Source of the DNA: Candidatus Poribacteria bacterium | GTDB lineage: Bacteria; Poribacteria; WGA-4E; UBA9662 | Reading direction: 5' to 3' | Assembly: GCA_002709695.1 (NCBI GenBank) | Contig: PAQF01000037.1 | Location: forward strand, 1 to 64,000 | Length of the DNA stretch: 64,000 nucleotides | Shown here: positions 1,666 through 16,822 of the stretch, piece by piece | Position numbering within the stretch: position 1 is the stretch's first letter | How the letters are laid out: each line of letters begins with the position of its first letter | The notes under the pieces: generated by a model | Databases searched by the model: none | Told to the model about the DNA's origin: nothing | Seen by the model: the letters and a program-made list of their open reading frames with translations, nothing else | Program-made: the position numbers and the translations under genes

Positions 1666-4600
1666 TCACCTCAACAAACTCAAAATATTCTGTGTTAAAG
1701 CATTGGCTTGGACTAACATCGCACTGCTTGACTGCGATAGAATTTGTGCCTTGGTCATATTCATGGCTTCAGACGCAAAATCCGCATCCTGGATACTGGA
1801 ACGAGAAGACTCAATGTTCTGAGCCTGACTAGCTAAATTCGACATAGTGAAGGCTAAACGATTCTGCTCTGAAGCCAGATAACTTCGCTCCTCGTTAACC
1901 ATGTATATAGCTGTATCCAAAGCCGTAATGGCTGCCCTAGCCTGATCAATATCCAAAACTGATTCATCTTCGATTTCCAAACCACTGGACGTCACACTGG
2001 TGATACCCAGTTTTAATTGGTGATTAACATCGTTATCTGCTCCTACCTGTAAATCTCTGTTTGGCGAAATTTCTATCTGTGTCCCATCCAAACTGTCATT
2101 ATGTGGGTTATAACTGTCAGCAGAAGGTATAGCTGGATCAGGACTACTCTTTATATCCAGCTGAATGCCAAATTCATCAAAATTCAGCGTCGTGTCATAA
2201 CCTACACGATATTCCAAACTCTGCTCCATTCCATTCTCACCCGTCATCGTCAGTTTCCTCGTTTCCGGTACAAAAAAATCCTGAGGGGCTCCAAGTAATG
2301 TCGTTGTCGTCCCCGATGCATCGCTGGTATCAACTTCCAAACCCAGTCGAGAGAAACCTACTGTTTGAGGGCTATCATGGAACTGATAGCCAGTTTCTTC
2401 CACAGGAGCTGTATTAGGCGAGTTAATGGCCAGCGTTGGATTAACAGTGAAATCCCTAGAAATGTTAAGTAACTGGGTTGCTGTTGTTTGGGCATCATCA
2501 CTATCAACATCCAAACCTAAATCACTAAAAGAGACGGTTTGCGATTCCGAACTGGACGAATATTTAATCTCTTGTTCGGTTCCATCAGGTATGCTGGCTT
2601 TCAATCGTGTATCAACCGTAAACTCTTGGGAATGATTCAGTAACTGCCTTGCCGTTTGTTCAGCATCATCACTATCAACTTCGAGACCCAAAGTATCGAA
2701 ATCCACCGTTTGTGATTCTGAACTGGACGAATATTTAATCTCTTCTGTCGCTCCGTTTGGAGCTGTTGCCCTCAGCCTGGCATCAACCGTAAAATCTTCT
2801 GCATTATCAAGTAAAGACGATGTCATGGCTATCGCATTGTCCGTTTCAACCTGAAGGCCTAAGCCAGATAGGGTTACTGTTTGAGAGCTGCTATCGTATT
2901 CATAAACACTTTTAGCCACCGTATTATCATGGGCAGTCACTGACATGGTGGGGTTGACTCTGAACCCTTTCGAATTCTCAAGCAGACTGGTAGCTGTCCC
3001 TTCAGCATTACTACTGTCAAGGCTAAGCCCCAAGTCGGTGAAATTCACCGTTTGGGATTCTGAACTGGACGAATAGGGAACCTCCTGCTCGGTCCCATCA
3101 GGAGCAACAGCTTTCAACCGTGTATCAACCGTAAACTCTTGGGAATGATTCAGTAACTGCCTTGCCGTTTGTTCAGCATCATCACTATCAACTTCGAGGC
3201 CCAAAGTATTGAAAGAGACTGTTTGGGATTCTGAACTGGACGAATAGGGAATCTCTTCTGTCGCTCCGTTTGGAGCTGTTGCCCTCAACCTGGCATCAAC
3301 CGTAAAACTTTTGGAATTATTCAGTAATGAATTCGTCATGACTTGGGCATCACTAGTATCAATTGTGAGGCCTAAATTACCAACGGAGATTGCTTGAGGT
3401 GACGAACTGTACGAGTAGTTGACGTCAGTAACCGTAGTATTGTTCGGAGCAGTTACCTCCAAGGTCGGATTAACAGTAAAGATCCTGGGATTACCAGCCA
3501 TCTGATCACCCAGAACCGTTCCATCACTCACATCTATTTGAAATCCCAAGTCAGAAAAAGTCGAGGTTTGGGGACTGCCTGTATAATCGTAGTTGACTGT
3601 CTCGCTTGTCCCTCCGCCAGAGGGAGTGACCGTCATTTCTCTACTGAAAGAAACCGAAAACTGATCCAATACTTGATCAGAAGGATAACCATCTACAAGA
3701 CCACTCTTAGTGCCTGCGACTGATCCAACTTCACCAAACCGGACATCTGAAGCACCACCACCACCACCACCATTTTGTACTTGACCGGATGTATCATAAC
3801 CGCCACTGCCTCCTCCATTCCATCCACCAAGATTCGTTCGGTCTTGACTATTATCTCCTTCTCCTTGTCCACCTACGTAGACATGACCAATTTGACCTGA
3901 CGTAACTTGAAATTGTCCTGTGGCATACCCTCCATTTCCTCCTGTGGCACCACCTTGGGCACCCCACACTTCTATTGTAATTTCGGTAACACCAGCAGGC
4001 GTCGTAAATGTTTGTACGCTTCCCGTATAATCGAAAGTTACATTACCACCATCATAGCTAATCTCTGCTGAACCGTCGCCGGAGCGAACTCCAGACTGGG
4101 TAGACCCGTTTGATACTCCACCAATATAAGAGGAACCACCGCCACCTCCGGCAGCATAACCGGACCCATGCTCCGCCATCATAGTTCCACCACCACCGCC
4201 ATAATATCCACCACCACCGCCACCACTACCCCATGCATTACCTGTAGATCCACTACCTCCCTGACCTTGCGTTCCATGTGTAGCACCATACGATGTTGAG
4301 TTAGCCTCTCCTCCAGCCGATTGTGCCCCCCCTGTCCCTCCTACAGCAACATTGGAACCTTCATCACCTTGACCTCCTTGAAGGCCTCCTCCAGATCCTC
4401 CTAGCTTTGACGGATATGAGCCACCACCACCACCACCAGCTACAATAATTCTCCGTGCCAAATCCTGATCCTGACCTGTATTCAACCCCCATTTTTGGGC
4501 TAAGTAGTCGTTGATCGGTGCCTTTTCTGCATCTGTCAGTACTCTATCAAAAACCAGAACTTCATCGATATTAGTAGCATCAGATAACTGGATACCACCT

Positions 4601-6429
4601 GCATTACTGTCAGCCAAGTTCAGAGCTCCTGATTTCGTCACCACAAACATCGTTCCTGTACTGAAGGTTTGGCTGGGAGCTAATCCTGACTGAGAAATAT
4701 GATTGCTTTTTCCGCTAAAATCAACCCAGTTATCCGCATCTATAGCACTCCATTCACGAGAATCCAGCCATAATTTCAAGTCACCGGATACATTCGAAAA
4801 GGCTCCAGGTAAATCTTTGACCTTACTCGCATCAACAGGATAACTATCCTTGAAATCTAAGACACCATCACTATCACTGTCAGGGAAAGTTACCGTAACA
4901 TCTTTACCATCCGTAGTACGAAATGTAACTCCGTGGTTCCCCGAAACAGAGTTCGGACCTGAAGCAGAGAAAGTATCAGAGGAAGCCAAAGTCCAAGCGG
5001 TACCATCCGATGTCGTTTCAAGCTCAATATCCCCACTACTTCTCAGTATTAGTCTATAATCACGTTTATCTTCTGTCACACTAACTGTATAGTCTCCGGG
5101 TGTCACCGGAACACCTTCCGTTGAAGCATCATGCCGGATCTCGCCGATGGCTGTGCCGGAAAAATTACTGACATTTGCTATTCCTGCACTGACCTTGGCC
5201 CTGATCATATGATCTCCTGGCCTCACTAATGGGGAAGCATCATGCCGGATTTCAGTAATGGATGTACCGGACAAACCACTTATATTAGCTCGATCTGAGA
5301 CATCTAAACGCGCGATTATTTCATGATCCCCCGGTTGCACTACTGAGGAGACATCATGCCGGATTTCAGTAATGGATGTACCAGATAAACCACTTATATT
5401 GACAGGATCCGAAGCATCCAAGCGAGTGCTGAGCGTATGGTCTCCGAGTTGTACTACTGAAGAGGCGTTATGCCGAATTTGAGTGATGGATGTACCGGAT
5501 AAACCACTTATATTGGCAGGATCCGAGGCATCCAAACGCGATATTATCGTATGGTCTCCTGGTTGTACCACTGAAGAAGCATTATGCCGGATCTCAGTAA
5601 TCGACGTACCCGACAACCTACTAATATTAGCTAGATCCGAAGCATCCAAACGCGATATTATTGTATGATCTCCTGGTAACACAATTGGTGAAGTACTATG
5701 CCGAAGTTCACTCACATCTGTAATAGATAAATTATCAATGTCAGCTATACCTGAATTGACTTGGGATTTAATACTGTAGGTTTCTCCCAGCGCAGGTTGA
5801 AATGATGAACTACTGTACCTGATACCAGTTATTGCCGTATCAGACAATTTGCTGATATCCGCTAAGCCACTAACGTCAATATGTTCATCCTTCAAGGTGT
5901 AAACCCCTTTACGAATATCATGGGATAAATTCGCATTTTTGACGCTGATTCCTATCACATCATCGGCAGTAGTATTAGCTCTATGGACTTCATTTTTGTA
6001 ATCAGTGCCATTAAGCAAACTCATCTCGTTATACTCAGTAGCATGGGCAACCCGGCTGATTTCATTTTTAAGTGTTTGAAACTCCAGGTTGATGCTAGCC
6101 CGGTCACTATTATTGAGTGTATCAGTAGCAGCCTGTGTTGCCAGTTCGCGCATTCGCGTCAGCATGCCACTTATGCCGCTCAAGCCACTTTCTGCCGTTT
6201 GAATCAGGTTATTGGCTTGTTGGGAATTCTCATTGGCTTGCTTTACCCCCTGCATCTGGTTGAACATTCGAGTACTAATAGCAGACCCAGCAGAATCATC
6301 AGCTGCCTTGTTAATCCGAAGCCCAGAAGAGAGCCTTTCCAATGTTGTCTGCAGATTGAACTGAGACTTGGACAAGTTCCTGTAGGCAAAAGCTGAGGTC
6401 AGATTACTTTTAATTCTGAAAGTATTCAT
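1666..6429 (-). CDS. fliC: Giant chimeric flagellin (1587 residues)
   Basis: This is a filament subunit with intact flagellin ends and an exceptionally large middle; common flagellins have roughly 250-600 residues. Residues 1-~145 form the N-terminal D0/D1 (ERLSSGLRINKAADDSAG, then LEFQTLKNEISR). Residues ~1490-1587 form the C-terminal D1/D0, ending AMLVQANALTQNILSLLR. Between them, in order: about six ~38-residue repeats with a SGLSGTSITEIRH core (~186-450); a DSDSDGVLDF calcium-binding-like turn (~517-526); a shortened LamG/concanavalin-like segment (LKLWLD... to YLAQKWGL, ~550-650); a glycine-rich region (~664-897) with two halves resembling the Gly_rich family (VEVWGAQGG-type and AGGGGGGS); and about nine ~57-residue repeats with an SSSSESQTV...LGLEVDSDDA core (~926-1400). 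The middle should project from the filament surface. No protease motif was seen, so flagellinolysin is unlikely. It ends at the ribosome site of the mini-flagellin gene and follows an flgM-like gene. Confidence 0.9.
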   Translation of the reverse strand: MNTFRIKSNLTSAFAYRNLSKSQFNLQTTLERLSSGLRINKAADDSAGSAISTRMFNQMQGVKQANENSQQANNLIQTAESGLSGISGMLTRMRELATQAATDTLNNSDRASINLEFQTLKNEISRVAHATEYNEMSLLNGTDYKNEVHRANTTADDVIGISVKNANLSHDIRKGVYTLKDEHIDVSGLADISKLSDTAITGIRYSSSSFQPALGETYSIKSQVNSGIADIDNLSITDVSELRHSTSPIVLPGDHTIISRLDASDLANISRLSGTSITEIRHNASSVVQPGDHTIISRLDASDPANISGLSGTSITQIRHNASSVVQLGDHTLSTRLDASDPVNISGLSGTSITEIRHDVSSVVQPGDHEIIARLDVSDRANISGLSGTSITEIRHDASPLVRPGDHMIRAKVSAGIANVSNFSGTAIGEIRHDASTEGVPVTPGDYTVSVTEDKRDYRLILRSSGDIELETTSDGTAWTLASSDTFSASGPNSVSGNHGVTFRTTDGKDVTVTFPDSDSDGVLDFKDSYPVDASKVKDLPGAFSNVSGDLKLWLDSREWSAIDADNWVDFSGKSNHISQSGLAPSQTFSTGTMFVVTKSGALNLADSNAGGIQLSDATNIDEVLVFDRVLTDAEKAPINDYLAQKWGLNTGQDQDLARRIIVAGGGGGGSYPSKLGGSGGGLQGGQGDEGSNVAVGGTGGAQSAGGEANSTSYGATHGTQGQGGSGSTGNAWGSGGGGGGYYGGGGGTMMAEHGSGYAAGGGGGSSYIGGVSNGSTQSGVRSGDGSAEISYDGGNVTFDYTGSVQTFTTPAGVTEITIEVWGAQGGATGGNGGYATGQFQVTSGQIGHVYVGGQGEGDNSQDRTNLGGWNGGGSGGYDTSGQVQNGGGGGGASDVRFGEVGSVAGTKSGLVDGYPSDQVLDQFSVSFSREMTVTPSGGGTSETVNYDYTGSPQTSTFSDLGFQIDVSDGTVLGDQMAGNPRIFTVNPTLEVTAPNNTTVTDVNYSYSSSPQAISVGNLGLTIDTSDAQVMTNSLLNNSKSFTVDARLRATAPNGATEEIPYSSSSESQTVSFNTLGLEVDSDDAEQTARQLLNHSQEFTVDTRLKAVAPDGTEQEVPYSSSSESQTVNFTDLGLSLDSSNAEGTATSLLENSKGFRVNPTMSVTAHDNTVAKSVYEYDSSSQTVTLSGLGLQVETDNAIAMTSSLLDNAEDFTVDARLRATAPNGATEEIKYSSSSESQTVDFDTLGLEVDSDDAEQTARQLLNHSQEFTVDTRLKASIPDGTEQEIKYSSSSESQTVSFSDLGLDVDSDDAQTTATQLLNISRDFTVNPTLAINSPNTAPVEETGYQFHDSPQTVGFSRLGLEVDTSDASGTTTTLLGAPQDFFVPETRKLTMTGENGMEQSLEYRVGYDTTLNFDEFGIQLDIKSSPDPAIPSADSYNPHNDSLDGTQIEISPNRDLQVGADNDVNHQLKLGITSVTSSGLEIEDESVLDIDQARAAITALDTAIYMVNEERSYLASEQNRLAFTMSNLASQAQNIESSRSSIQDADFASEAMNMTKAQILSQSSSAMLVQANALTQNILSLLR
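2230..3654 (-). repeat. Array of ~171-nt coding repeats in the giant flagellin
   Basis: About nine units of ~57 codons, each with a TV-rich strand, SSSSESQTV-type segment and LGLEVDSDDA-type segment. A block of three units is duplicated at an exact offset of 513 nt: 2611 corresponds to 3124 and 2741 to 3254. The two copies are nearly identical over long runs, which points to a recent in-frame duplication. Confidence 0.85.
5100..5870 (-). repeat. Array of ~114-nt coding repeats in the giant flagellin
   Basis: About six units of ~38 codons (SGLSGTSITEIRH and PGDHTIISRLDASD cores). The five between ~5215 and ~5720 are the most alike, and the outer ones are diverged. Period and phase are in frame, so this is a protein repeat. 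Confidence 0.85.
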
Positions 6430-6825: not shown

Positions 6826-7193
6826 GTGCTTGCCCTCTGTTAATTTCTTAAAATTTCTTTGTTTCTGTTGCTACCCGAATTATTGCGGATGACTATGTAT
6901 CGGTAAGAACAGGAAAAAACTTTAGGCCTAAAATGAAAAAACTTTAAAAAAATATGAATTTAACCAAATTGGAGTGAGATACAGGGAGGAGATATAAGTC
7001 AGTAAAAAGTATGTTTTATCCAATCAAACTGTTATTTAAACACCAGTTATATCAACATTCCATAAAGATGGAACAGAAAACAGATAAACTGGATTCTCAG
7101 AACAAAGGACGTTAGAATTAGGGGAGAGATAATCCGGAAAGAAATCAACTTCAAATAAACAGAAGCTATCTAAAAGGAAAAGGTCAGATCCGT
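6826..7193. other. Divergent intergenic region between flgM copy 2 and the metallopeptidase gene
   Basis: This 368-nt region holds the sigma-28-like promoter directed into the flagellin island. The half near 7194 contains no promoter that I could identify with confidence for the plus-strand gene. Confidence 0.5.
6897..6924 (-). promoter_or_regulatory. Sigma-28 (FliA)-type promoter with a duplicated upstream box
   Basis: Reading the minus strand, TAAAGTTT (6924-6917) is followed after 12 nt by ACCGATAC (6904-6897). The enterobacterial sigma-28 consensus is TAAAGTTT, 11 nt, GCCGATAA, so both boxes match closely with one extra spacer base. A second TAAAGTTT lies 22 nt upstream (6946-6939). The promoter would drive flgM copy 2 and, by readthrough, the giant flagellin. 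Confidence 0.65.
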
Positions 7194-7889
7194 ATGCTCT
7201 TCTTCGATCCAATGTATCTTTTGTTTTCAGCACCAGGTTTTTTATTAGCCACGTTAGCAACTATCTTAACCAAATCTACCTTTGCCAAATATTCGCAGGT
7301 AGCCTCCAGTAAGAAGATAACTGGTGCCCAAGCAGCCAGAGAAATGCTTCAGCGACACGGCGTACATGGGGTCAATATTGAACCCACACACGGACAATTA
7401 ACTGATCATTATGATCCTACCACGAAAACTCTGCGATTATCCCAAGATGTCTATGGCAGCTATTCACTTTCAGCCGTCGGTATCGCCTGCCACGAAGCGG
7501 GACACGCAATTCAACATGCACATAAGTACGCAGCACTATCGCTTAGGTCTGCCTTGGTTCCAGCAACGAACCTGTCAACCGGCCTAGCTTTTCCAGCTAT
7601 GATGTTAGGTATGTTTCTCTCCATCGAAATGTTTGTCCTATTCGGAGTTGTCTTATTTTCAATGGGGGTTGTATTCGCTTTGGTAACTTTGCCAGTAGAA
7701 TGGGATGCCAGCCATCGAGCCAAAAGTGCAATGGTGGAGGCAGGACTCCTGTCGGAACAGGAACAAACAGGTGCCAGTGCCGTTTTAAATGCAGCCTTTC
7801 TCACCTATCTGGCAGCGGCATTAACCAACATTCTGATATTGGTCTATTATCTGTTTCGGTTAGGTATTCTGGGTGGAAGTGACGACTAG
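7194..7889 (+). CDS. yugP: YugP-type zinc metallopeptidase (PF04298)
   Basis: A membrane-bound neutral zinc peptidase-like protein of 231 residues, usual for the family. It begins FDPMYLLFSAPG, then has a KSTFAKYSQV amphipathic segment, the family signature LTDHYDPTTKTLRLS (~69-83) and the zinc motif HEAGH (residues 100-104, inside VGIACHEAGHAIQ). Hydrophobic segments lie near 8-24, ~128-170 and ~200-224. The substrate is unknown even in studied relatives. It stands alone on the plus strand, divergent from the flagellin island and convergent with the halogenase-like gene. Confidence 0.9.
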   Translation: MLFFDPMYLLFSAPGFLLATLATILTKSTFAKYSQVASSKKITGAQAAREMLQRHGVHGVNIEPTHGQLTDHYDPTTKTLRLSQDVYGSYSLSAVGIACHEAGHAIQHAHKYAALSLRSALVPATNLSTGLAFPAMMLGMFLSIEMFVLFGVVLFSMGVVFALVTLPVEWDASHRAKSAMVEAGLLSEQEQTGASAVLNAAFLTYLAAALTNILILVYYLFRLGILGGSDD

Positions 7890-8358
7890 AAAAAGATTAG
7901 GACAAATAAACGCTAACTGGAAAAACAAAAATAGACGTAAAAAATCCTGTATGATATGGAACCTTATTCCGTTTTACAATAACGCTATATCTTTCATGAT
8001 TTCCGGATAAAAATCACGAAAGATTACCTTATATATGTCTTCCTACTAAAAAGCCACAGAGGAGTTTATACAGGATCTAACAGCTTTTCTATCCAACCAT
8101 AATTTTTTGGGAGTGCTATTTGGTTCGGGCATGATCTTAACCAAAGTACCAATGTCGTATAGTAGCCAGCTGTGTAATTATGGTTCTCAAAAAATAAAGA
8201 CCAATACTCGCTTGTATGCCTGTTGACCTGCCCAGATCTTCAACTACTGATCTTAGCGAAGTGGACATCAGATTTCAAACCAACTCCACATAGTGGGCAG
8301 TTAAACCAACATCACAAATAGAGGAGGGTCATTCTGCTACTCAAGAAATAAATTAACG
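7890..8358. other. Convergent intergenic region
   Basis: This 469-nt stretch lies between the 3' ends of the metallopeptidase and halogenase-like genes. Apart from one long inverted repeat (7989-8024) I see no gene, RNA or promoter. Confidence 0.5.
7989..8024. repeat. Inverted repeat between convergent genes
   Basis: Arms ATCTTTCATGATTT (7989-8002) and AAATCACGAAAGAT (8011-8024) pair over 14 positions with one mismatch around an 8-nt loop. The position between two converging genes suits a transcript-end hairpin, but neither side has a good T tract. Confidence 0.5.
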
Positions 8359-9456
8359 TTATGTATTCAAGTCCTTTGTTTGTAACCCGTCATACATTTG
8401 CTTAAAACTTATTAGTTCCCAAATCCCATAATCTTTAGAATTTTCTTTCGTCAAAGGATCTTTTGTCGACAAGGCATCATTCATTCTCTCCCAGAATTTC
8501 AGATCTTTAATTTTCAGAACTTTAGCAGTCTTCCAAAAAGAGGTTTCATATTTGGATCCATGAAGATAATGATATAAAACAAAATTCTCTACCTCATGAA
8601 TTAACTTCTTAATAATAGAAGAGATTTCTTTAGGATGAGTGTTTTTCAGAATAATCCAATCATAAGTGTATCGAATCCAATACATATAAACAGAAAGAGC
8701 AGTTGCCTCTAGAGGTTCCAAAAAAAATAGTCGGTTACCATTCAAAATGATTCGCTCATCAATAACGGGATTTTTAGCAACATAATTTTTAAAAGAAAAG
8801 TCGTGAAAAATTTCATCTGGATCAATAATACTTTCAAAATTCTCATGAGCTTTGACACGAGAAGTCAAAGTAGAATTATAAAGATAACCATAAGAAGTTT
8901 GTTCCAGGGTTGGAATCACAAAGCACCATCCATCAGGAGTAGCAATGGCTTGTGTCCATTGAATATTAGACATTGGCCCTCGGCCTAGCACAACCGAATC
9001 AATAGGATTTGTTAAAAAATCATAATCATCATAACTTGGTGGAAACCCTCTACAATCAAAAATATAATCGGCATCAACGTCATCATAAGAATTTATGTTT
9101 CGATCCGCAACCTTAAAATCTCCGTTCTCTAAAATATAATTCTGTAAAGAATGAGAGTCATAATGCATAGCAGCACTATCCAAATGAAAAGGATGGAACC
9201 ACTTATCTGTTTTCCCACCCCACCCATCATAAAGAATACCAGTTTTTATAGTAGCTTTTATAGGGTTATCATACCAATTCATTTCTAAAGTATTCCACAA
9301 CATTGTCGGCACATCAGGAAGAGTTCCCTGTCCTACGATCTGCGTAGGAATGTCACTATCATGAATCAATTCTACTTCAACATACGGAGAAAAATACTTA
9401 TAATGTAAAGCAGTAAAACAACCCGCAAGACCTCTACCTAATACAACTATTTTCAT
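8359..9456 (-). CDS. Flavin-dependent (tryptophan) halogenase-like protein
   Basis: A 365-residue FAD-dependent halogenase/monooxygenase-like protein. The FAD-binding motif GRGLAG is at residues 7-12. The segment IKTGILYDGWGGK (~70-82) aligns with the halogenase region that holds the catalytic lysine, so K71 is the likely equivalent, followed by WFHPF. The signature GWCFVIP corresponds to the family GWxWxIP motif with its second Trp replaced by Phe. Classic tryptophan halogenases have about 500-540 residues, so this is a short form that may lack part of the substrate lid. The ATG at 9456 is chosen over an upstream in-frame start because GGAGG lies 10 nt before it. The gene stands alone and is more AT-rich and Asp/Tyr/Asn-rich than its neighbours, which hints at acquisition. 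Substrate is unknown; it could be a non-halogenating relative. Confidence 0.7.
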   Translation of the reverse strand: MKIVVLGRGLAGCFTALHYKYFSPYVEVELIHDSDIPTQIVGQGTLPDVPTMLWNTLEMNWYDNPIKATIKTGILYDGWGGKTDKWFHPFHLDSAAMHYDSHSLQNYILENGDFKVADRNINSYDDVDADYIFDCRGFPPSYDDYDFLTNPIDSVVLGRGPMSNIQWTQAIATPDGWCFVIPTLEQTSYGYLYNSTLTSRVKAHENFESIIDPDEIFHDFSFKNYVAKNPVIDERIILNGNRLFFLEPLEATALSVYMYWIRYTYDWIILKNTHPKEISSIIKKLIHEVENFVLYHYLHGSKYETSFWKTAKVLKIKDLKFWERMNDALSTKDPLTKENSKDYGIWELISFKQMYDGLQTKDLNT

Positions 9457-9603
9457 TGAGATTTTTCCTCCAACAGGTAAAGATATTTTACTCACTACCC
9501 TCCAGACTAAGGAAGGATCGTACACCAGCAGTTATTCTTCACACCAGCTTTTTTGGGACCTGATATTAGAAAAGAAATAAACCATACTCGAAAAAATACT
9601 GTC

Positions 9604-9642
9604 TAGAGAGAGGATTTATGTTCTCATGCAATCCTCTCTCTA
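9604..9642 (-). terminator. Hairpin after the sugar-import/protease operon
   Basis: Perfect 13-bp arms, TAGAGAGAGGATT and AATCCTCTCTCTA, flank a 13-nt loop. On the minus strand a run of six T follows about 8 nt later. It sits 34 nt past the stop of the Ste24-like gene and before the halogenase-like gene, so it probably ends the long minus-strand operon. Confidence 0.6.
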
Positions 9643-9675
9643 ACAACGTATAAAAAGGTAGATAAAGAAACAATA

Positions 9676-10932
9676 TTATCTCTCAACTATAGGAACATCA
9701 CGCATGGCAGAGATCCTCTCCAATACAGGAGGATGACTGTAGTTGAGAAATACGTTGACCGGATGTGGTGTTAGATTCCCCAAGTTAGCTACTGAAAGCT
9801 TTTTCAACCCTAGAATCAGCGAATCTGACAAGCCTAAGGTTTCAACTGCGTAGGCATCAGCTTGATATTCATGTTTGCGAGAAAGATAGTGCATAGCCAC
9901 AGACAACACAAACTCAATCGGGGAATAAAGGACACCAAAAAACACAAATCCTGCATAAATCCGGACATGATCTACTTCATCCATACCAAAAGCTTGAAAA
10001 AGGGATCGGTTATCAATAAAAATCGATAGTAAATAGAAAAGGAGTCCGGTATGAAGAATCGAAATCATCATCCCTTTGAAAATATGCTTTTTCTTATAAT
10101 GCCCCACCTCATGCGCAATGATGGCTACCAATTCATCAACCGAATGCTGCTCTATCAATGTATCGAAAAGCACAATCCGCTTTTTCCTGCCGAATCCACT
10201 GAAATATGCGTTTGAATGGGACGAACGTTTAGACCCATCCATAATAAAGAGATCCGTTAGTGGAAATGACACCTTCTGTGCATATTGGTGGATAGCGTCT
10301 TTCAATTCCCCTTCTGGTAAAGGCGTAAATTTATTAAACAACGGAGAAATAAAAGTAGTGTAAATTGGTGGTGCTGCCACAATAAAGATGGATACTAACA
10401 TCCAAGCATAAAGCCAAGCCAATTCAGCAGCTTTATCGAAAAAGTAAAGAATTGACCCCATAATCACAAAGCCTAAGATAGCACTCAAAAAATATGCCTT
10501 GAACTTATCTAAGACAAAAGTCCGAACCGTTGTTTTATTAAACCCAAATCGTTCCTCAATCACAAAAATATTATACACAGAAAAAGGTAGTGAGAGCCAA
10601 TCACTAACCAGAAAAAGTATGGCAAAAAAGATCAAACCGGTTGGAATAGGAGATAATTCAAGGCTACGGACAAAAATATCCAGAACGTTAAAGCCACCCA
10701 TTAGGATAAAAATGAGCATAACAATCAGGCTGATACTGGAAGAAACATAGGCAAATTTCGTGTTGGCCCGGGTATACTGCTGCGATTTACGGTATTGTTC
10801 CTGATCATAGAAGCCATCAAACTCAGCTGGCAAATCCGGAACCATTGCTTTGAGATTAAAGTACCTGGTAAGACATCGAATTAAATACTCACCAACCAAT
10901 GCAGCAATGATAATGCTTAGATAAATTTTCAT
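9676..10932 (-). CDS. M48-family Ste24/CAAX-type membrane protease
   Basis: An integral membrane zinc endopeptidase of 418 residues, the usual size for bacterial Ste24 homologs. It has multiple transmembrane segments (near 3-20, 62-85, 95-117, 148-165, 172-195, ~285-335) and the zinc motif HEVGH at 274-278. The third ligand is likely the Glu of RKHEYQADAYA. The loop before the zinc site (SKRSSHSNAYFSGFGRKKRIVLFDTLI) is typical of the family. In eukaryotes Ste24 trims prenylated proteins; bacterial relatives more likely act in membrane protein quality control. It is the last gene of the operon, 39 nt after the lipoprotein gene. Confidence 0.9.
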   Translation of the reverse strand: MKIYLSIIIAALVGEYLIRCLTRYFNLKAMVPDLPAEFDGFYDQEQYRKSQQYTRANTKFAYVSSSISLIVMLIFILMGGFNVLDIFVRSLELSPIPTGLIFFAILFLVSDWLSLPFSVYNIFVIEERFGFNKTTVRTFVLDKFKAYFLSAILGFVIMGSILYFFDKAAELAWLYAWMLVSIFIVAAPPIYTTFISPLFNKFTPLPEGELKDAIHQYAQKVSFPLTDLFIMDGSKRSSHSNAYFSGFGRKKRIVLFDTLIEQHSVDELVAIIAHEVGHYKKKHIFKGMMISILHTGLLFYLLSIFIDNRSLFQAFGMDEVDHVRIYAGFVFFGVLYSPIEFVLSVAMHYLSRKHEYQADAYAVETLGLSDSLILGLKKLSVANLGNLTPHPVNVFLNYSHPPVLERISAMRDVPIVER

Positions 10933-10971
10933 CTTAGTCTCAGTCTTAAGAAATCTTCCATATTTGGCCTC

Positions 10972-11595
10972 TTAGAACTCCGGGTCAGGAATTTCAGGTT
11001 CATCAGGAATTTCAGGTTCATTAGGTTGAGTATCCGGGTCAATGTTCAAACGGCGTTCAGGCTGCGAGGGATCGGCATCAATGAGTCCATACAACTCAAT
11101 TTCCTGTGCGTAAGGATAACCTCGTTCAATTCCACTATAGCGGCGAACGTTAGGATCGAGACTCGTGGCCGACCTGAAATCTTTGCCCACTCGTTTATCG
11201 TCCAAAGTACCACCAATTCGAAAACGTATGGCGTCAGTAACACAAGTGGTACGAAAATCAATGATAGCCCCCTGGTTATCTTTAATCTTCTTGATCTTCC
11301 GCCAGCTATCCACATTTCCTAAACCAGCATAGACAATAATATCCTCAAAATTGGTTCCGCGAATGATAATACGATGGATGGCTTTCCGCTCTGGCAAGGT
11401 AAGGATGATTTCCTTCCAGCGTCGTCCAACAGTTTCTAAGTCACCATCAATCATCTCTGGCGATGTACAAGTAGTGCCTTCAATCAAAGCGTAATTCTGA
11501 CTCCACGTCTGTTCAGGAAACAAGCTACTAACCAAACTGCTCTTACAACCTGAAATTCCACATCCAATAACCACAATAAAAACAATCAGATTCAT
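10972..11595 (-). CDS. Lipoprotein with a discoidin (F5/8C)-like segment
   Basis: A 207-residue exported lipoprotein. The start at 11595 is chosen because AGGA lies 5 nt upstream and because it gives a clean signal peptide (MNLIVFIVVIGCGISGC) ending in the lipobox ISGC. After the lipidated Cys, residues ~30-130 (a TSPEMIDGD motif, then HRIIIRGTNFEDIIVYA and TDAIRFRIGG) resemble a galactose-binding/discoidin beta-sandwich, weakly. The tail is acidic and proline-rich with a repeated EPEIPD motif. It sits between the PhyH and Ste24-like genes of the sugar-import operon, so a surface carbohydrate-binding role is possible but unproven. Confidence 0.65.
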   Translation of the reverse strand: MNLIVFIVVIGCGISGCKSSLVSSLFPEQTWSQNYALIEGTTCTSPEMIDGDLETVGRRWKEIILTLPERKAIHRIIIRGTNFEDIIVYAGLGNVDSWRKIKKIKDNQGAIIDFRTTCVTDAIRFRIGGTLDDKRVGKDFRSATSLDPNVRRYSGIERGYPYAQEIELYGLIDADPSQPERRLNIDPDTQPNEPEIPDEPEIPDPEF

Positions 11596-11632
11596 GCGGA
11601 TCCTAATTTGCCTCTTCTCGATTAGAATCGAA

Positions 11633-12361
11633 CTAGTTGGACTCCCATTTCCCATCAAGCCCTTTCCGAACAACAGCTTTCTCATCATAACCTCCATAAG
11701 CACTCGGCATATTGAGCGCAATACCAAGCAATGCTTGCAACTCAGGGGATGTTATCTCCGGAAATCGCTCTTCGCTGGCATAAGGCATCCATGTTTCAAA
11801 ACGCTTCATCCAATAGTGACCATAAGTTGGAAAAATAGCCCGGCGGACGTTTCCAGATCGATTGCCACCACCCCGATGCCAAGTTGTGCAGTCAAAAATG
11901 ACTGCGGTTCCAGCTGGAACCATCAAACGTACTTCATCTGACAAATTGCCAGCATCTTTTGGTGGTGGTTCCCCATATTTATGAGAACCAGGCACCACAC
12001 AAATTGGACCATTATCTACCATTAATTCATCCAAATACACACCAACATTCAACATCAAAGGCCGATCGCAATAAAAGGTAAAATCCGCGTGCCAACCTTG
12101 ATCCGGTGTATCTGGCTGACGAGCAATACCGTCGAACTGCAGAAGTTGCGGTCGGGATTCCAAAATAGATTCAATAGCAGATACCAATATAGGATGATTC
12201 GCCACACCCAAAAAGGTAATATCGCGGTCCAGCAAATTCCGGTATTCATCTAACTGATCGAAAGCATGACAAATTTGAGCCAGCAGGTCTACTTCTAACA
12301 TCCGTTCAATGATGTGATAGCCATTTTTGTTAAATTCTTCCTTTTGAGATGAAGTAAGCAT
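11633..12361 (-). CDS. PhyH-family Fe(II)/2-oxoglutarate dioxygenase (operon copy)
   Basis: Non-haem iron dioxygenase of 242 residues, phytanoyl-CoA hydroxylase family. The iron ligands are visible: the HxD pair H91 and D93 (GWHADF), and the distal H162 in TTWHRGGGNRS, with the following Arg as the probable 2-oxoglutarate anchor. The VPGSHKYG turn is typical of the family. It starts 3 nt after the stop of the inner-membrane permease gene, so it is co-transcribed with the sugar ABC importer and may hydroxylate or oxidatively cleave an imported compound. The family's substrates vary widely and none can be read from the sequence. Confidence 0.88.
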   Translation of the reverse strand: MLTSSQKEEFNKNGYHIIERMLEVDLLAQICHAFDQLDEYRNLLDRDITFLGVANHPILVSAIESILESRPQLLQFDGIARQPDTPDQGWHADFTFYCDRPLMLNVGVYLDELMVDNGPICVVPGSHKYGEPPPKDAGNLSDEVRLMVPAGTAVIFDCTTWHRGGGNRSGNVRRAIFPTYGHYWMKRFETWMPYASEERFPEITSPELQALLGIALNMPSAYGGYDEKAVVRKGLDGKWESN

Positions 12362-12364
12362 CGT

Positions 12365-13300
12365 CTACCCTTTAATTGCTCCACTAGTTAAGCCACCAAC
12401 AAACTCTTTCTCAAGGGAGAAAAACAGAATAGCTGGAGGGATAATAGCCAACAGTGTGCCCGCTAGAAAAATACCGTATTGCTGATCATAAAGATCAACA
12501 TATTGATTTAAGGCTACCGTTAAGGTTAATTTTGATTGAGTTTGAATAAACACATCGGGGGCGATAAAAGCATTCCAACTACCAAGAAAACTTATCAAGC
12601 AAAAAGCAGCAGTTATTGGACGTACTAGCGGCATCACAATATTCAGATATATGCCGAATTCGCCACAACCATCGATCCGTGCGGCTTCAACTAGGGTGCT
12701 TGGTACTGAAAAGAACGCCTGTCGGAACAGGAACATCCCAAAAGCACTGCATGCCCCCGGAACGATTAGCGCCCAGTAGGTATCCATCCAATTCATCTTA
12801 TGGATCAAATGATAAAGCGGCGACAGGAGAAGCATAGCCGGAATCATCATCGTACCAAGCATGAAAAGTATCAGAAAACTTCTACCACGAAACTCATATT
12901 TGGCAAGAGCATAGCCTCCCAAAGAGGAAAAGAAAAGTGTAACCATAGTAGAAGTACTAGCTAAAAAAAATGAATTGACGATATACTGCCAGAAATAGAT
13001 AGCTCCTTCCAACGTTTCTTCCTTTTCAAAAAGTTTTTTTAGGTTGCTAAAGTTGAGGGTCTGGCTTGACCATTCTGAAACTGGAGGCAGGAAAGTATAC
13101 GCCATTAATACCTCCGGATCTTTAAAGGCAGAACAAACCAGCCAGAAAAAAGGAGCCAAGATCAAGGCAGCAATACTGGTCAATACCAGATAACGGAGAT
13201 ACACCAAGGCAATCTGCTTACCTCTAGGCATGAAAGGAAAAAAATATAAGAAAAAAAACACGAAACCAAAGAAAAAAAATGTTAAATGCGTATTATTCAT
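12365..13300 (-). CDS. Carbohydrate ABC transporter permease, MalG/UgpE type
   Basis: Inner-membrane permease of 311 residues with six or so transmembrane segments. The EAA loop that contacts the ATPase is present (EAARIDGCGEFGIYLNIVMP, ~208-227). Its ATG overlaps the stop of the upstream permease gene (ATGA, 4 nt), so the two halves of the channel are translationally coupled. The N-terminus has an extra Phe-rich hydrophobic stretch (residues 8-23). An alternative start at Met24 (MPRGKQIALVYLRY) would remove it, but the ATGA overlap favours the longer form. Confidence 0.9.
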   Translation of the reverse strand: MNNTHLTFFFFGFVFFFLYFFPFMPRGKQIALVYLRYLVLTSIAALILAPFFWLVCSAFKDPEVLMAYTFLPPVSEWSSQTLNFSNLKKLFEKEETLEGAIYFWQYIVNSFFLASTSTMVTLFFSSLGGYALAKYEFRGRSFLILFMLGTMMIPAMLLLSPLYHLIHKMNWMDTYWALIVPGACSAFGMFLFRQAFFSVPSTLVEAARIDGCGEFGIYLNIVMPLVRPITAAFCLISFLGSWNAFIAPDVFIQTQSKLTLTVALNQYVDLYDQQYGIFLAGTLLAIIPPAILFFSLEKEFVGGLTSGAIKG

Positions 13301-14217
13301 AAAACTGATTCTGTCTCCAAACCACGACCAATTTTCATCTGCACGAAGCTAATAGTAAAGATAATTATAGCCAATAGCCAACCGATAGCAGCACCTGTCC
13401 CAAGGTCGCCTGCTTCAAAAGCAGTACGATACAAATAGCCAACTATTGTCAACCCAGAATCCTTCGGTCCATAACCAGCAACTCCAGCAGCGTTTTGCAG
13501 TAAAGCATAAGGCAATTCGAACAATTGGTAGGAACCTATCGTGCTCATAACAACTACAAAGAGCACAACCGGTTTAATAGCTGGAAACGTAACAGCCCAA
13601 AACAATTGCCAAGGGTTCGCACCATCAATTAAGGCGGCTTCTTCCAAATTCTGATCGACATTTTGAAGTGCAGCCAGAAAATAAATCATATTGAACCCAA
13701 CATACATCCACATGGCAGCAATAATCAAAGCAGGCATTACTAGATTCGGATTTTCAAGCCATCTTTTTTCTAAACCCCAACCGGTTACTTCCTGCAAGAA
13801 TCGGTTGAACATACCATATCGTGGCATAAAAATAACACTAAAAATAATGCCAACAAAGATCTGACCAACCAAGTAAGGACTGAACAAAATCAGTCGAAAT
13901 ACACCTTTTAGACGATCTTTTTTAGAGTTTAATAACAAAGCCATTCCCAAGGATAACGGTAGTTGCACCAATATAGAAGCAAGCGCAAATATCGTAGTGT
14001 TCCAGACTGCAATATGGAAATCACCATCAGCCAGCACAAAAGCAAAATTTTCTAAGCCAACAAAACTCCAGCTCTTTGGACCATTAGTTTGATAGAACGC
14101 CAGAATAATAGCATAAATAAATGGATAAATAAAAAAGATAAGCGTTAAGACCAAATAAGGACTCAAAAACAACCAAGGTCCGGTCCGTTTATTTAGCCGT
14201 TCTTTCCATTTTTCCAT
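13297..14217 (-). CDS. Carbohydrate ABC transporter permease, MalF/UgpA type
   Basis: Partner permease of 306 residues with about six transmembrane segments. The first is near 17-38 (LFLSPYLVLTLIFFIYPFIY, the usual family opening). The EAA motif (LEEAALIDGANPWQLFWAVTFP, ~190-211) is well conserved. It starts 25 nt after the binding-protein gene. With the partner permease and a dimer of the UgpC-type ATPase it should form the import channel. Confidence 0.92.
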   Translation of the reverse strand: MEKWKERLNKRTGPWLFLSPYLVLTLIFFIYPFIYAIILAFYQTNGPKSWSFVGLENFAFVLADGDFHIAVWNTTIFALASILVQLPLSLGMALLLNSKKDRLKGVFRLILFSPYLVGQIFVGIIFSVIFMPRYGMFNRFLQEVTGWGLEKRWLENPNLVMPALIIAAMWMYVGFNMIYFLAALQNVDQNLEEAALIDGANPWQLFWAVTFPAIKPVVLFVVVMSTIGSYQLFELPYALLQNAAGVAGYGPKDSGLTIVGYLYRTAFEAGDLGTGAAIGWLLAIIIFTISFVQMKIGRGLETESVL

Positions 14218-14242
14218 ATGTTAGACCTAAGGCTCGTTCATC

Positions 14243-15610
14243 TTAATTGGCAATTCGCTTCCGGTAAAATATGTTGTGCTGCACCCTATTTTCAACATAG
14301 GCAGAAACCCGAACCAATTCTCTTTTAATATATTCTTCTAATCCATCATCACCACTTTTATCATAGTATAAAGCCGCATTGATAAAGACTTCGTTTAGTT
14401 TGTTTCTGGCTAACTCATAATACGGACTGGCATAGTTGGATGGAACATCTTTTGCCATCTCGGCGTATAAGGCACCAATTGGCTGGTTTGTATAGAAAGG
14501 TACAGGTTCCTTAAATTCCGGTAGGTCCCAAGCATCTTTAACCGGTGGGATAATGTAGGATGCTTTGAACCTCTTACCAAGATCTTCAGCTTTTAGATAT
14601 AGGACTTTAGCAAATTCCCAAGCTAGTTTCTGATTCTTGCAGGCTTTGGTAATTGCCAGTCCTGTTCCACCCCAAGTACTGACACGTCCTCCTCCAATTT
14701 CCCAAGCAGGCAACGGCATCAATTTCATCTTGCCACTAAGATGTGGGGTATCTGTTTCAAAATGTTTGGTTCTCCAATCCGGACAAAAATAGAACAATAC
14801 CAAGCCATCAGTGACAGTTTTGGCTAAAGTTTGTCCCCAACCAGCCGAGAAAGCAATACGGTTTTTCCCACGACTTTGATGAATGTACCAGATAATGGTG
14901 TCCACCACCGTATGGTTATTGATTTTCAGCTGTCCGTCCTGAGTAAATAGCGGTTCCTTGCGTTGAAGAAGGAGTGGGGTCAGCATATCACCGTTAGCCG
15001 GTAGATCAAGCGCATACTGATCAGGGTTGCCATCGCCGTCAAGATCTCTGGTAATCTGCCGTCCCATTTTAGTAAAGTCATCCCAAGTTTTTAGGCTATC
15101 CACATCAATCCCGAGTTCCTCTACCAAATCACTTCTATAGCAAAGCATCAACGGATGCACATCATGCGGCAAGGCAAAGATTCTTCCTAACCTGGATAGA
15201 CGACTATAACGCGATTCAACAAAACGATCATACAAACCTTCGGCATGCAAACGGTCAGTTAGATCAACAAAACCGACATCTTCGATTGGGCCTTTGGTAA
15301 AGGTCCCCATAGTATCAGCTAGAATCTCAACGACATCTGGAACATTAGCATTTGTCAGAAACGCATTTTGCAGTCGGCTCTTGACTGTCCTGGCAGAAAC
15401 TAATTGTAACTGGACTTTTACTCCATGATCTCTTTGAAATTCCTCCGTAGCTTCTTCATAACCTTCCATATGGCTCCTAGCAAAGGAAACGAAAACCAAG
15501 TCCGGTTTTTCACCTCTTTTTGAAAACGCAATTACTAGATTAAAAATCCCCGTCGAAATAGCTATCAGTAGTATACAAAAAGGGACTTTACCATACGGAA
15601 ATTTTGGCAT
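14243..15610 (-). CDS. ABC transporter extracellular solute-binding protein (family 1)
   Basis: High-affinity sugar-binding receptor of the importer, 455 residues from the start chosen here. An N-terminal hydrophobic segment (about residues 9-27) acts as a signal or membrane anchor, and no lipobox Cys is evident. The mature part has the SBP family 1 pattern (LVFVSFARSHMEGYEEATEEF, DVVEIL, a WGGTGLAI hinge). The ATG at 15610 lies 19 nt after the ATPase stop. A longer form from 15658 would overlap the ATPase gene by 29 nt and add 16 polar residues before the signal, which is less likely. A DLDGDGNPDQY stretch could bind calcium. Its ligand is unknown; neighbours suggest a sugar or polyol derivative. 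Confidence 0.88.
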   Translation of the reverse strand: MPKFPYGKVPFCILLIAISTGIFNLVIAFSKRGEKPDLVFVSFARSHMEGYEEATEEFQRDHGVKVQLQLVSARTVKSRLQNAFLTNANVPDVVEILADTMGTFTKGPIEDVGFVDLTDRLHAEGLYDRFVESRYSRLSRLGRIFALPHDVHPLMLCYRSDLVEELGIDVDSLKTWDDFTKMGRQITRDLDGDGNPDQYALDLPANGDMLTPLLLQRKEPLFTQDGQLKINNHTVVDTIIWYIHQSRGKNRIAFSAGWGQTLAKTVTDGLVLFYFCPDWRTKHFETDTPHLSGKMKLMPLPAWEIGGGRVSTWGGTGLAITKACKNQKLAWEFAKVLYLKAEDLGKRFKASYIIPPVKDAWDLPEFKEPVPFYTNQPIGALYAEMAKDVPSNYASPYYELARNKLNEVFINAALYYDKSGDDGLEEYIKRELVRVSAYVENRVQHNIFYRKRIAN

Positions 15611-15629
15611 TATCGTTCTAGTATCAAAA

Positions 15630-16733
15630 TCATAAAATGGCTTTATCCGTATTAACATCGAAAAAATGGGCCCGGTCCATAGCTACAGCTAACTCTATCT
15701 TTTCACCAACCATGTATTTTTTATGAGAATCGACGCGACTAACGAAACTAGTCGTCTCCGACTTCAAGTAAACATAAGTTTCCGCACCCATAGGCTCAAC
15801 CACATCAACAACAGCTGAAATTCGACCAACTGTTTCACTATTTTCAGCTATAGCTGAACCGATATGCTCTGGGCGAATTCCAAGCACAACTTTCTGTTTA
15901 TCCAACTGCCTGAATTTTTTTGTTTGCTGTTCAGCTATCTGAAGTTGCATACCATCTTCGGAGAGAAAAGCTATCGACGAATTCTGAGCGAGAATGTGTC
16001 CATCAAAGAAATTCATTGGAGGTGTCCCAATAAAGCTGGCCACAAATTTGTTTACTGGCCGATCATAGAGAGTAATGGGGTCCGCAACTTGTTGTATTAA
16101 ACCTTCATTCATTACTACAATCCGATCCCCCATCGTCATAGCTTCAACCTGATCATGAGTGACATAGATCATGGTAGTATTTATTTCGTTATGCAGTTGG
16201 CTCAGTTCAACACGCATTTGCACACGCAACTTAGCATCTAGATTAGACAACGGTTCATCAAACAGAAAGACAGAAGGTTGACGAACAATCGCACGGCCAA
16301 CAGCGACACGCTGACGTTGTCCACCGGATAGAGCTCTGGGTTTACGATGAAGCAAATCAGTCAACCCCAACATTTGAGCGACATCATTGATCCGTGCTTC
16401 TATTTCAGTTTTCGGATACTTTCGCAACTTGAGGCTAAACGCCATATTCTCTCGAACGGACATATGTGGATAGAGGGCATAATTCTGAAAGACCATTGCG
16501 ATATCTCGGTCCTTCGGCGAAACACGGTTGACAATGCGATCATCTATCGAGATCTCACCTTCCGTAATATCTTCCAACCCCGCAATCATACGAAGAGTAG
16601 TGGACTTGCCACAACCAGAAGGTCCAACCAAGACGATAAATTCACCATCCTCAATCACTAAATTAAAGTCTTCTACTGCCTTAATGTCACCAGGATAGTT
16701 TTTTCCTACATCAACTAAAGTAACAGTTGCCAT
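15630..16733 (-). CDS. ugpC: Sugar ABC transporter ATP-binding protein, UgpC/MsmK type
   Basis: Cytoplasmic ATPase of 367 residues. Walker A GPSGCGKST is at 37-45, the Q-loop is in MVFQNYALYPHMSV, the signature LSGGQRQRVAVGRA follows, then Walker B VFLFDEPLSNLD and the switch His in THD. The C-terminal third is the regulatory OB/TOBE region (GIRPEHIG) typical of the CUT1 carbohydrate class. It is the first gene of a seven-gene minus-strand operon running to the Ste24-like protease. Symbol by family resemblance, not substrate. Confidence 0.93.
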   Translation of the reverse strand: MATVTLVDVGKNYPGDIKAVEDFNLVIEDGEFIVLVGPSGCGKSTTLRMIAGLEDITEGEISIDDRIVNRVSPKDRDIAMVFQNYALYPHMSVRENMAFSLKLRKYPKTEIEARINDVAQMLGLTDLLHRKPRALSGGQRQRVAVGRAIVRQPSVFLFDEPLSNLDAKLRVQMRVELSQLHNEINTTMIYVTHDQVEAMTMGDRIVVMNEGLIQQVADPITLYDRPVNKFVASFIGTPPMNFFDGHILAQNSSIAFLSEDGMQLQIAEQQTKKFRQLDKQKVVLGIRPEHIGSAIAENSETVGRISAVVDVVEPMGAETYVYLKSETTSFVSRVDSHKKYMVGEKIELAVAMDRAHFFDVNTDKAIL

Positions 16734-16822
16734 CTTTCCCCTGTTCCATAACTAGCAAACAGCCAATAAACATCTATGTTATCCGTTATATAAAACTAAA
16801 GTATACTGGAAATTCAAACTTC

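Follow-up and report, generated by a model that had tools for sequence, protein, structure and literature searches.

A lidless phage-type halogenase gene probably carried into a bacterial chromosome, with peptides or proteins as its possible substrates

Genes annotated as tryptophan halogenases have been noted in cyanophages since the first cyanophage genomes, and to our knowledge they have no known role. Protection against antibiotics by these enzymes is treated as speculative in a review (PMC2984593). VirX1 from cyanophage Syn10 is described as halogenating many small aromatics (PMC8407142). SrpI is described as an obligate leader-dependent peptidyl-tryptophan brominase, which brominates a C-terminal tryptophan (PMC10858898, PMC10286304) and needs Lys84 for activity (PMC10858898); according to PMC10286304, free tryptophan is not brominated by SrpI and free indole is brominated at C3. 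Here we describe a gene that we interpret, on balance, as a lidless phage-type halogenase carried into the chromosome of a marine bacterium, whose likeliest substrate would be a peptide or protein with an aromatic side chain to be halogenated.

This short flavin-dependent halogenase-like gene lies on the minus strand at positions 8359..9456 of the window, which is the whole 64,000-nucleotide stretch of DNA that was analysed. The first-pass annotation had placed it exactly, and the open reading frame is intact, encoding 365 aa from an ATG at 9456 to a stop at 8359, with a Shine-Dalgarno-like GGAGG (9467..9471, minus strand, read from the sequence) 10 nt before the ATG. Its description as a halogenase-like flavoenzyme agrees with the match to PF04820 (E 1.8e-28, 100 bits against a curated cut-off of 21) and with that to phrog_2928 ‘tryptophan halogenase’ (1.8e-76), while the NCBIfam search gave no family and PADLOC no match. 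The protein is 146 residues shorter than PyrH (511) and 173 residues shorter than PrnA (538), in line with the early estimate of about 150. It had also been called AT-rich and compositionally distinct. Indeed, its GC content (34.0%) is below that of every one of the 37 other window ORFs scored (mean 42.7%, range 37.8-48.3%) and its GC3 (26.0%) is likewise the lowest (mean 36.8%, lowest of the others 30.3%); codon choice does not set the gene apart, as it is outside the 12 worst local fits among 38 window ORFs. In the same window, positions 1666-6429 (minus strand) encode a 1587-aa flagellin with flagellin N and C ends and a long repetitive insert, part of which is a glycine-rich domain of the ALK/LTK type (PF12810, 8.3e-17).

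The FAD motif, the catalytic-lysine region and the GWxxxIP motif on which the gene was originally recognized are all present, as the dinucleotide motif GRGLAG (residues 7-12), K71 in KTGILYDGW and GWCFVIP, respectively. By arithmetic from the ATG, the codon of the catalytic Lys71, which corresponds to K79 in PrnA and K84 in SrpI, is at 9244..9246, that of Glu250 in FLEPLEATA is at 8707..8709 and those of Trp177-Cys178-Phe179 in the WxWxIP region are at 8920..8928 (all minus strand). We take Glu250 to be E346 in PrnA numbering. Conservation was assessed in an alignment in which 105 fetched relatives, merged with their identical copies into 90 rows including the window halogenase, were joined by L110 to give 91 rows, and from all counts of which the partial L028 was excluded. 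The catalytic lysine is Lys in 91/91 rows, the Glu250 column is Glu in 88 and Gln in 3, the HxF motif has its His in 85 rows and its Phe in 88, and positions 300-301 are Gly-Ser in 85 rows each, counts that come from many close kin and do not represent independent events.

Two halogenase signatures are altered. WxWxIP reads GWCFVIP, with Phe179 replacing the second Trp, and FxxPxxSxG (written Fx.Px.Sx.G) reads FLEPLEATA, in which Phe and Pro are kept and both Ser and Gly are replaced by Ala. The Trp-to-Phe change, correctly seen in the first-pass annotation, is a mark of the whole class (85/91 rows) and no oddity of one gene. WxWxIP is thought to block monooxygenation, and active FDHs without it are described in the same source (PMC8407142). 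The Trp1 and Trp2 substrate motifs, as defined in PMC8269204, are represented by GTLPDV (44-49) and HPFHL (88-92), compared with ATIPSL and HLFGN/HPFER. For Trp4 at the C-terminus there is a partial likeness only, the profile alignment pairing YG..W...SFK.WYD of the window halogenase with YYGNFEEEFRNFW of RebH.

The AlphaFold2 model of the protein (43 alignment rows; pLDDT 90.0, pTM 0.89) takes the halogenase fold. In VIA-align the top 48 entries, counted as one row per entry, were all variant-A tryptophan-type halogenases (Z 38.8-29.7), including AbeH (Z 38.8, the superposition covering 360 of 365 residues at rmsd 3.1), PyrH (35.5), PrnA (33.9) and VirX1 (29.7), and the next matches were CndH (26.9) and CmlS (26.8). 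Foldseek matched the model to PyrH with E 1.3e-23 and a TM of 0.82 by query length. Moreover, CmlS, PltA and PltM ranked well below the tryptophan halogenases in a profile search of PDB sequences. These data indicate that the window halogenase groups with halogenases and not with plain monooxygenases; both refuting tests proposed at first, on structure and on placement, came out in favour of the first-pass reading.

PyrH residues 97-165, comprising the lid with Trp3 (group B), have no counterpart in the window halogenase, and most of the shortening of about 150 residues is, as judged from this profile alignment, one deletion, that of the lid. In PyrH, loop 153-158 orders on tryptophan binding, and Q160 and Q163 contact the tryptophan carboxylate (PMC8269204); all of these fall inside the missing stretch. 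H88 and F90 preserve the aromatic HxF motif, which comes directly before the lid site and stacks on the indole, and 7 residues lie at the lid site between F90 and H98. This site measures 6-9 residues in 85/85 Trp-x-Phe (W-F) rows and 27-62 in 6/6 Trp-x-Trp (W-W) rows, and one tree branch with support 100/99 cuts off the six W-W rows. Since lid loss, the W-to-F change and Gly-Ser co-occur in the 91 rows, we consider them linked marks of one class.

Six loci (L022-L027) from MAGs of Rhodobacteraceae type and of gammaproteobacteria also encode lidless W-F proteins with 26-30% identity to the window halogenase; for the SrpI-type protein of L025 the value is about 30%. In the three neighbourhoods scanned (L022, L025 and L027), the halogenase genes of L025 and L027 adjoin YcaO cyclodehydratase genes, and those of L022 and L025 adjoin genes for bacteriocin exporters of the NHLM type that contain C39 peptidase domains. 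The landmarks described for SrpI are Lys84, Tyr102, Tyr110 and the loop P105-Q106-Q107-V108-S109, and its LysC fragments 81-135 and 85-135 imply Lys80 and Lys135 (PMC10858898, PMC10286304). L022 matches the published residues at 9 of 10 positions, the exception being Asn for Lys135. Based on this agreement and on the YcaO/NHLM context, L022-L027 were taken as SrpI orthologs by published residue numbers, and we take the lidless class to include, from these sequences, SrpI orthologs in RiPP clusters. The FMEPLEATA of L022 has the same Ser and Gly losses as the window FLEPLEATA, together with the same W-F change, suggesting that such changes need not abolish activity. In addition, Prochlorococcus sp. 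MIT 0701 has a gene for a 414-aa lidless W-F halogenase (L021:6001-7242). Outer-membrane efflux genes and HlyD-like secretion genes lie close to it, and in the tree its protein is the sister of the SrpI-type rows. No YcaO was found in the window's genome and no RiPP precursor was recognisable among the small ORFs in the flanks of the halogenase gene, which argues against a RiPP pathway; no RiPP gene lies beside it. The titles and abstracts searched in open-licence literature contained no link between phage halogenases and SrpI, which may be in print elsewhere; the word ‘phage’ is absent from the texts PMC12615548 and PMC12871659, and the SrpI similarity network of PMC11791876 may include viral sequences.

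The suggested resemblance to small marine-phage halogenases was confirmed in identity, size and phylogeny. A plain-protein scan of viral sequences with the window halogenase found nothing, but tblastn and alignment-based scans did find relatives. Among 50,697 phage records, 62 had a tblastn match, mostly cyanophages, with best full-length identities of 44-45% (S-RIM14, S-ShM2, S-SSM2 and AG-345-E15); for the isolate phages S-RIM14, Sf-CH8 and AG-345-E15 a full-length identity of 43-46% was obtained. When IMG/VR was scanned with an alignment of four rows, 358 candidate stretches matched the pattern, and at least 260 of these encode relatives. The IMG/VR relatives analysed were the best 80 of 260 matches, and the closest among these, L029, is 54% identical over the full length; its contig, of 9 kb, also encodes tail-fibre-like proteins and a 2OG-Fe(II) oxygenase. 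The mean GC content of 52 viral relatives is 33.8%, against 34.0% for the window gene. In a tree of 77 rows, from which near-identical sequences had been removed, the window halogenase pairs with L029 (support 100/94), and the 57 other rows of its clade come from viruses or from contigs that look viral. The alternative tree, in which these 57 rows are united to the exclusion of the window halogenase, had p 0.045 in an AU test, so nesting inside the viral clade is favoured only marginally.

A scan of one genome per species (84,980) gave 12 loci, none of them a clearly cellular close member: L017-L019 are on viral-looking contigs, and the other eight, not counting L020, have 26-32% identity. L017-L019 are binned as Euryarchaeota MAGs, and their contigs appear viral; the halogenase of L017 is nearly the same as that of L108, a viral contig, a phage-family protein is encoded on L018, and L019 has both a virion-protein match and a phage-type gene for photosystem II D1. 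In the viral neighbourhoods, 2OG-Fe(II) oxygenase genes were often found (22/51 halogenase loci) but were commoner still at transaldolase control loci without halogenase (13/14), and this linkage was therefore dropped. A C-terminal Trp was found in 7/487 ORFs of viral neighbour proteins, giving no sign of a dedicated substrate.

Within the window the gene is isolated, as first noted, its neighbours being two metallopeptidase genes whose DNA is syntenic with G001, a genome of the same genus. Comparison with G001 by blastn and MAFFT delimited a foreign segment of 1782 bp (7892..9673) holding one gene. It is flanked by host genes syntenic in G001 for a putative neutral zinc metallopeptidase (PF04298; 7194..7889, plus strand) and an M48/Ste24-type CAAX protease (9676..10932, minus strand), which neighbour each other in G001. 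The flanks align to G001 at 80% (6898-7891) and 87% (9674-16768), and between them G001 has 476 bp unrelated to the 1782 bp of the window. Therefore, the halogenase gene came in as part of a foreign stretch of about 1.8 kb. The 476-bp sequence at the insertion site of G001 (L152:990-1465, G001 C82) is itself different, and the space between the metallopeptidase genes may thus be prone to insertions. Positions 7892-8358 have no copy elsewhere in 58 genomes, just two matches of at most 45 bases; neither a convincing flanking repeat nor a tRNA was found at the insertion, and viral neighbour proteins gave only short, chance-level matches to the segment flanks.

This halogenase form occurs in 1 of 58 relatives and, by profile A3, in 1 of 84 phylum genomes, which is the window's own. 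The PF04820 profile matches 74 of the 84 genomes and alone is not specific. Most of these matches, of about 420 aa, are presumably geranylgeranyl-reductase-like flavoproteins and were not counted as halogenase evidence; the exceptions are the window halogenase and an ordinary long halogenase of 538 aa in G019, of the same phylum. Taken together, a phage-type halogenase fold and a foreign origin are very probable. Transfer from a virus to the bacterium would be the simplest reading, which we favour, though not firmly, as heavily viral sampling makes it less certain.

In the proposed mechanism, FADH2 from a general cellular reductase would bind at GRGLAG and react with O2 to form a C4a-hydroperoxide, which would oxidise a halide to hypohalous acid; bromide is a first guess by analogy with SrpI and from the habitat. 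The hypohalous acid would pass along the tunnel to Lys71, which, with the help of Glu250, would halogenate by electrophilic substitution an aromatic ring that His88 and Phe90 hold from either side. The search for a flavin reductase partner that had been suggested at first found none with PF01613 and PF03358 in the 96%-complete genome, while a PF01613 protein is present in 3/4 relatives. The likeliest substrate would be a peptide or protein, modified at an indole or phenol side chain. Since a lid of about 70 residues that helps to hold free tryptophan is lost, the pocket should be open, and an open pocket suggests a substrate larger than free tryptophan. The early suggestion of a new substrate can thus be sharpened, as the free-tryptophan lid is missing and the nearest characterised lidless relative, SrpI, is described as brominating peptides. 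The window protein probably has halogenating activity; a peptide or protein substrate, suggested by the lid loss and a relative at 30% identity, is a more tentative proposal.

A different substrate would follow if this phage-derived enzyme halogenated free small aromatics, such as indole, phenol or a metabolite, as VirX1 or BrvH, and not peptides. The activity of VirX1 on many small aromatics (PMC8407142), the bromination of free indole at C3 by SrpI itself (PMC10286304) and the absence of RiPP neighbours and of YcaO in the genome are consistent with this. However, the VirX1 relative L014 is on the long W-W side with 62 lid-region residues and is only 26% identical to the window halogenase over 232 aligned positions, and the Trp3 region is deleted in the latter; we consider this reading rather doubtful. 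The protein could also have lost halogenation while keeping the fold and be a flavin monooxygenase or oxidase, for which the change of WxWxIP, thought to block monooxygenation (PMC8407142), to WxFxIP and the incomplete FxxPxxSxG would speak. This is improbable, as Lys71 is invariant in all 91 rows, the best solved-structure matches are all halogenases, and L022 has the same W-F and EPLEATA, SrpI being an active brominase that needs Lys84 (PMC10858898).

With regard to the gene's history, it may be a recent capture without a role in the bacterium and heading to decay. Its form is found in single genomes of the 58 relatives and of the 84 phylum members (profile A3), it has no partner genes and no PF01613 or PF03358 reductase, and its composition is still phage-like; on the other hand, its 365 codons are intact behind a good Shine-Dalgarno sequence, and all class-conserved catalytic residues are kept despite only 54% identity to the closest viral protein listed, and we consider this history rather unlikely. 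Assembly or binning error, joining a phage fragment to a bacterial contig, has to be weighed for a metagenome-type assembly of 87 contigs, and the MAG contigs with phage genes (L017-L019, two of which hold them with this halogenase family) suggest that mis-binning does happen for this family. An artefact is nevertheless most improbable here, given G001-syntenic host DNA on both sides within one 64-kb window (80% and 87%) and no other phage gene in the 1782-bp segment. Finally, an old cellular gene could be the source of the phage copies, in which case the bacterial copy would not be of viral origin. The AU test only marginally rejects a viral clade without the window halogenase, but none of the 12 loci among 84,980 species is a clearly cellular close member and the same-genus site in G001 is without the gene, and there is little chance that this direction is correct.

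These comparisons separate the phage halogenases into two groups: the W-W group bears the lid and includes VirX1, and the W-F group, which is lidless and far larger, also contains the peptidyl brominase SrpI. The nearest chemically studied relative brominates peptides, suggesting a testable job for a large viral enzyme family that is present in hundreds of viral contigs. The split offers a cheap test: peptides, not free tryptophan, and bromide, not chloride. It is conceivable, but unlikely, that marine phages broadly carry SrpI-type peptidyl- or protein-tryptophan halogenases which, in the course of infection, modify a virion or host protein, and that the bacterium took one as a stand-alone enzyme for the halogenation of proteins. 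The window also indicates that such a phage-type gene can settle alone in a bacterial chromosome.

PyrH, PrnA, RebH, AbeH and SttH share with the window halogenase the fold, the FAD motif, the catalytic Lys and Glu, the HPF aromatic stacking motif and a Trp1-like GTLP, but they keep the lid of about 70 residues and WxWxIP, and their structure-based identity to it is 19-22%. VirX1 (PDB 6qgm, from cyanophage Syn10, iodinating) has the phage FDH fold with Lys and Glu (Z 29.7), but is 507-531 aa long, with the W-W motif, a kept lid and FIEPLESNG. The SrpI-type proteins (L022-L027) are like the window halogenase in being lidless, in the W-F motif, EPLEATA and catalytic Lys, and in GS before the Y-D-T-x-F-W stretch. 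In contrast to SrpI of sponge-microbiome RiPP clusters, the window gene, at about 30% identity, is without YcaO, exporter and precursor peptide, and its protein has HLDSAAM in place of the leader-contact loop (SrpI 104-110, PQQVS). The short cyanophage halogenases of 359-390 aa (S-ShM2/S-RIM14, Sf-CH8 and marine virus AG-345-E15; phrog_2928) are alike at 43-46% identity in their lidless W-F layout and AT-richness, whereas the window copy sits in a bacterial chromosome and has a host metallopeptidase gene on either side.
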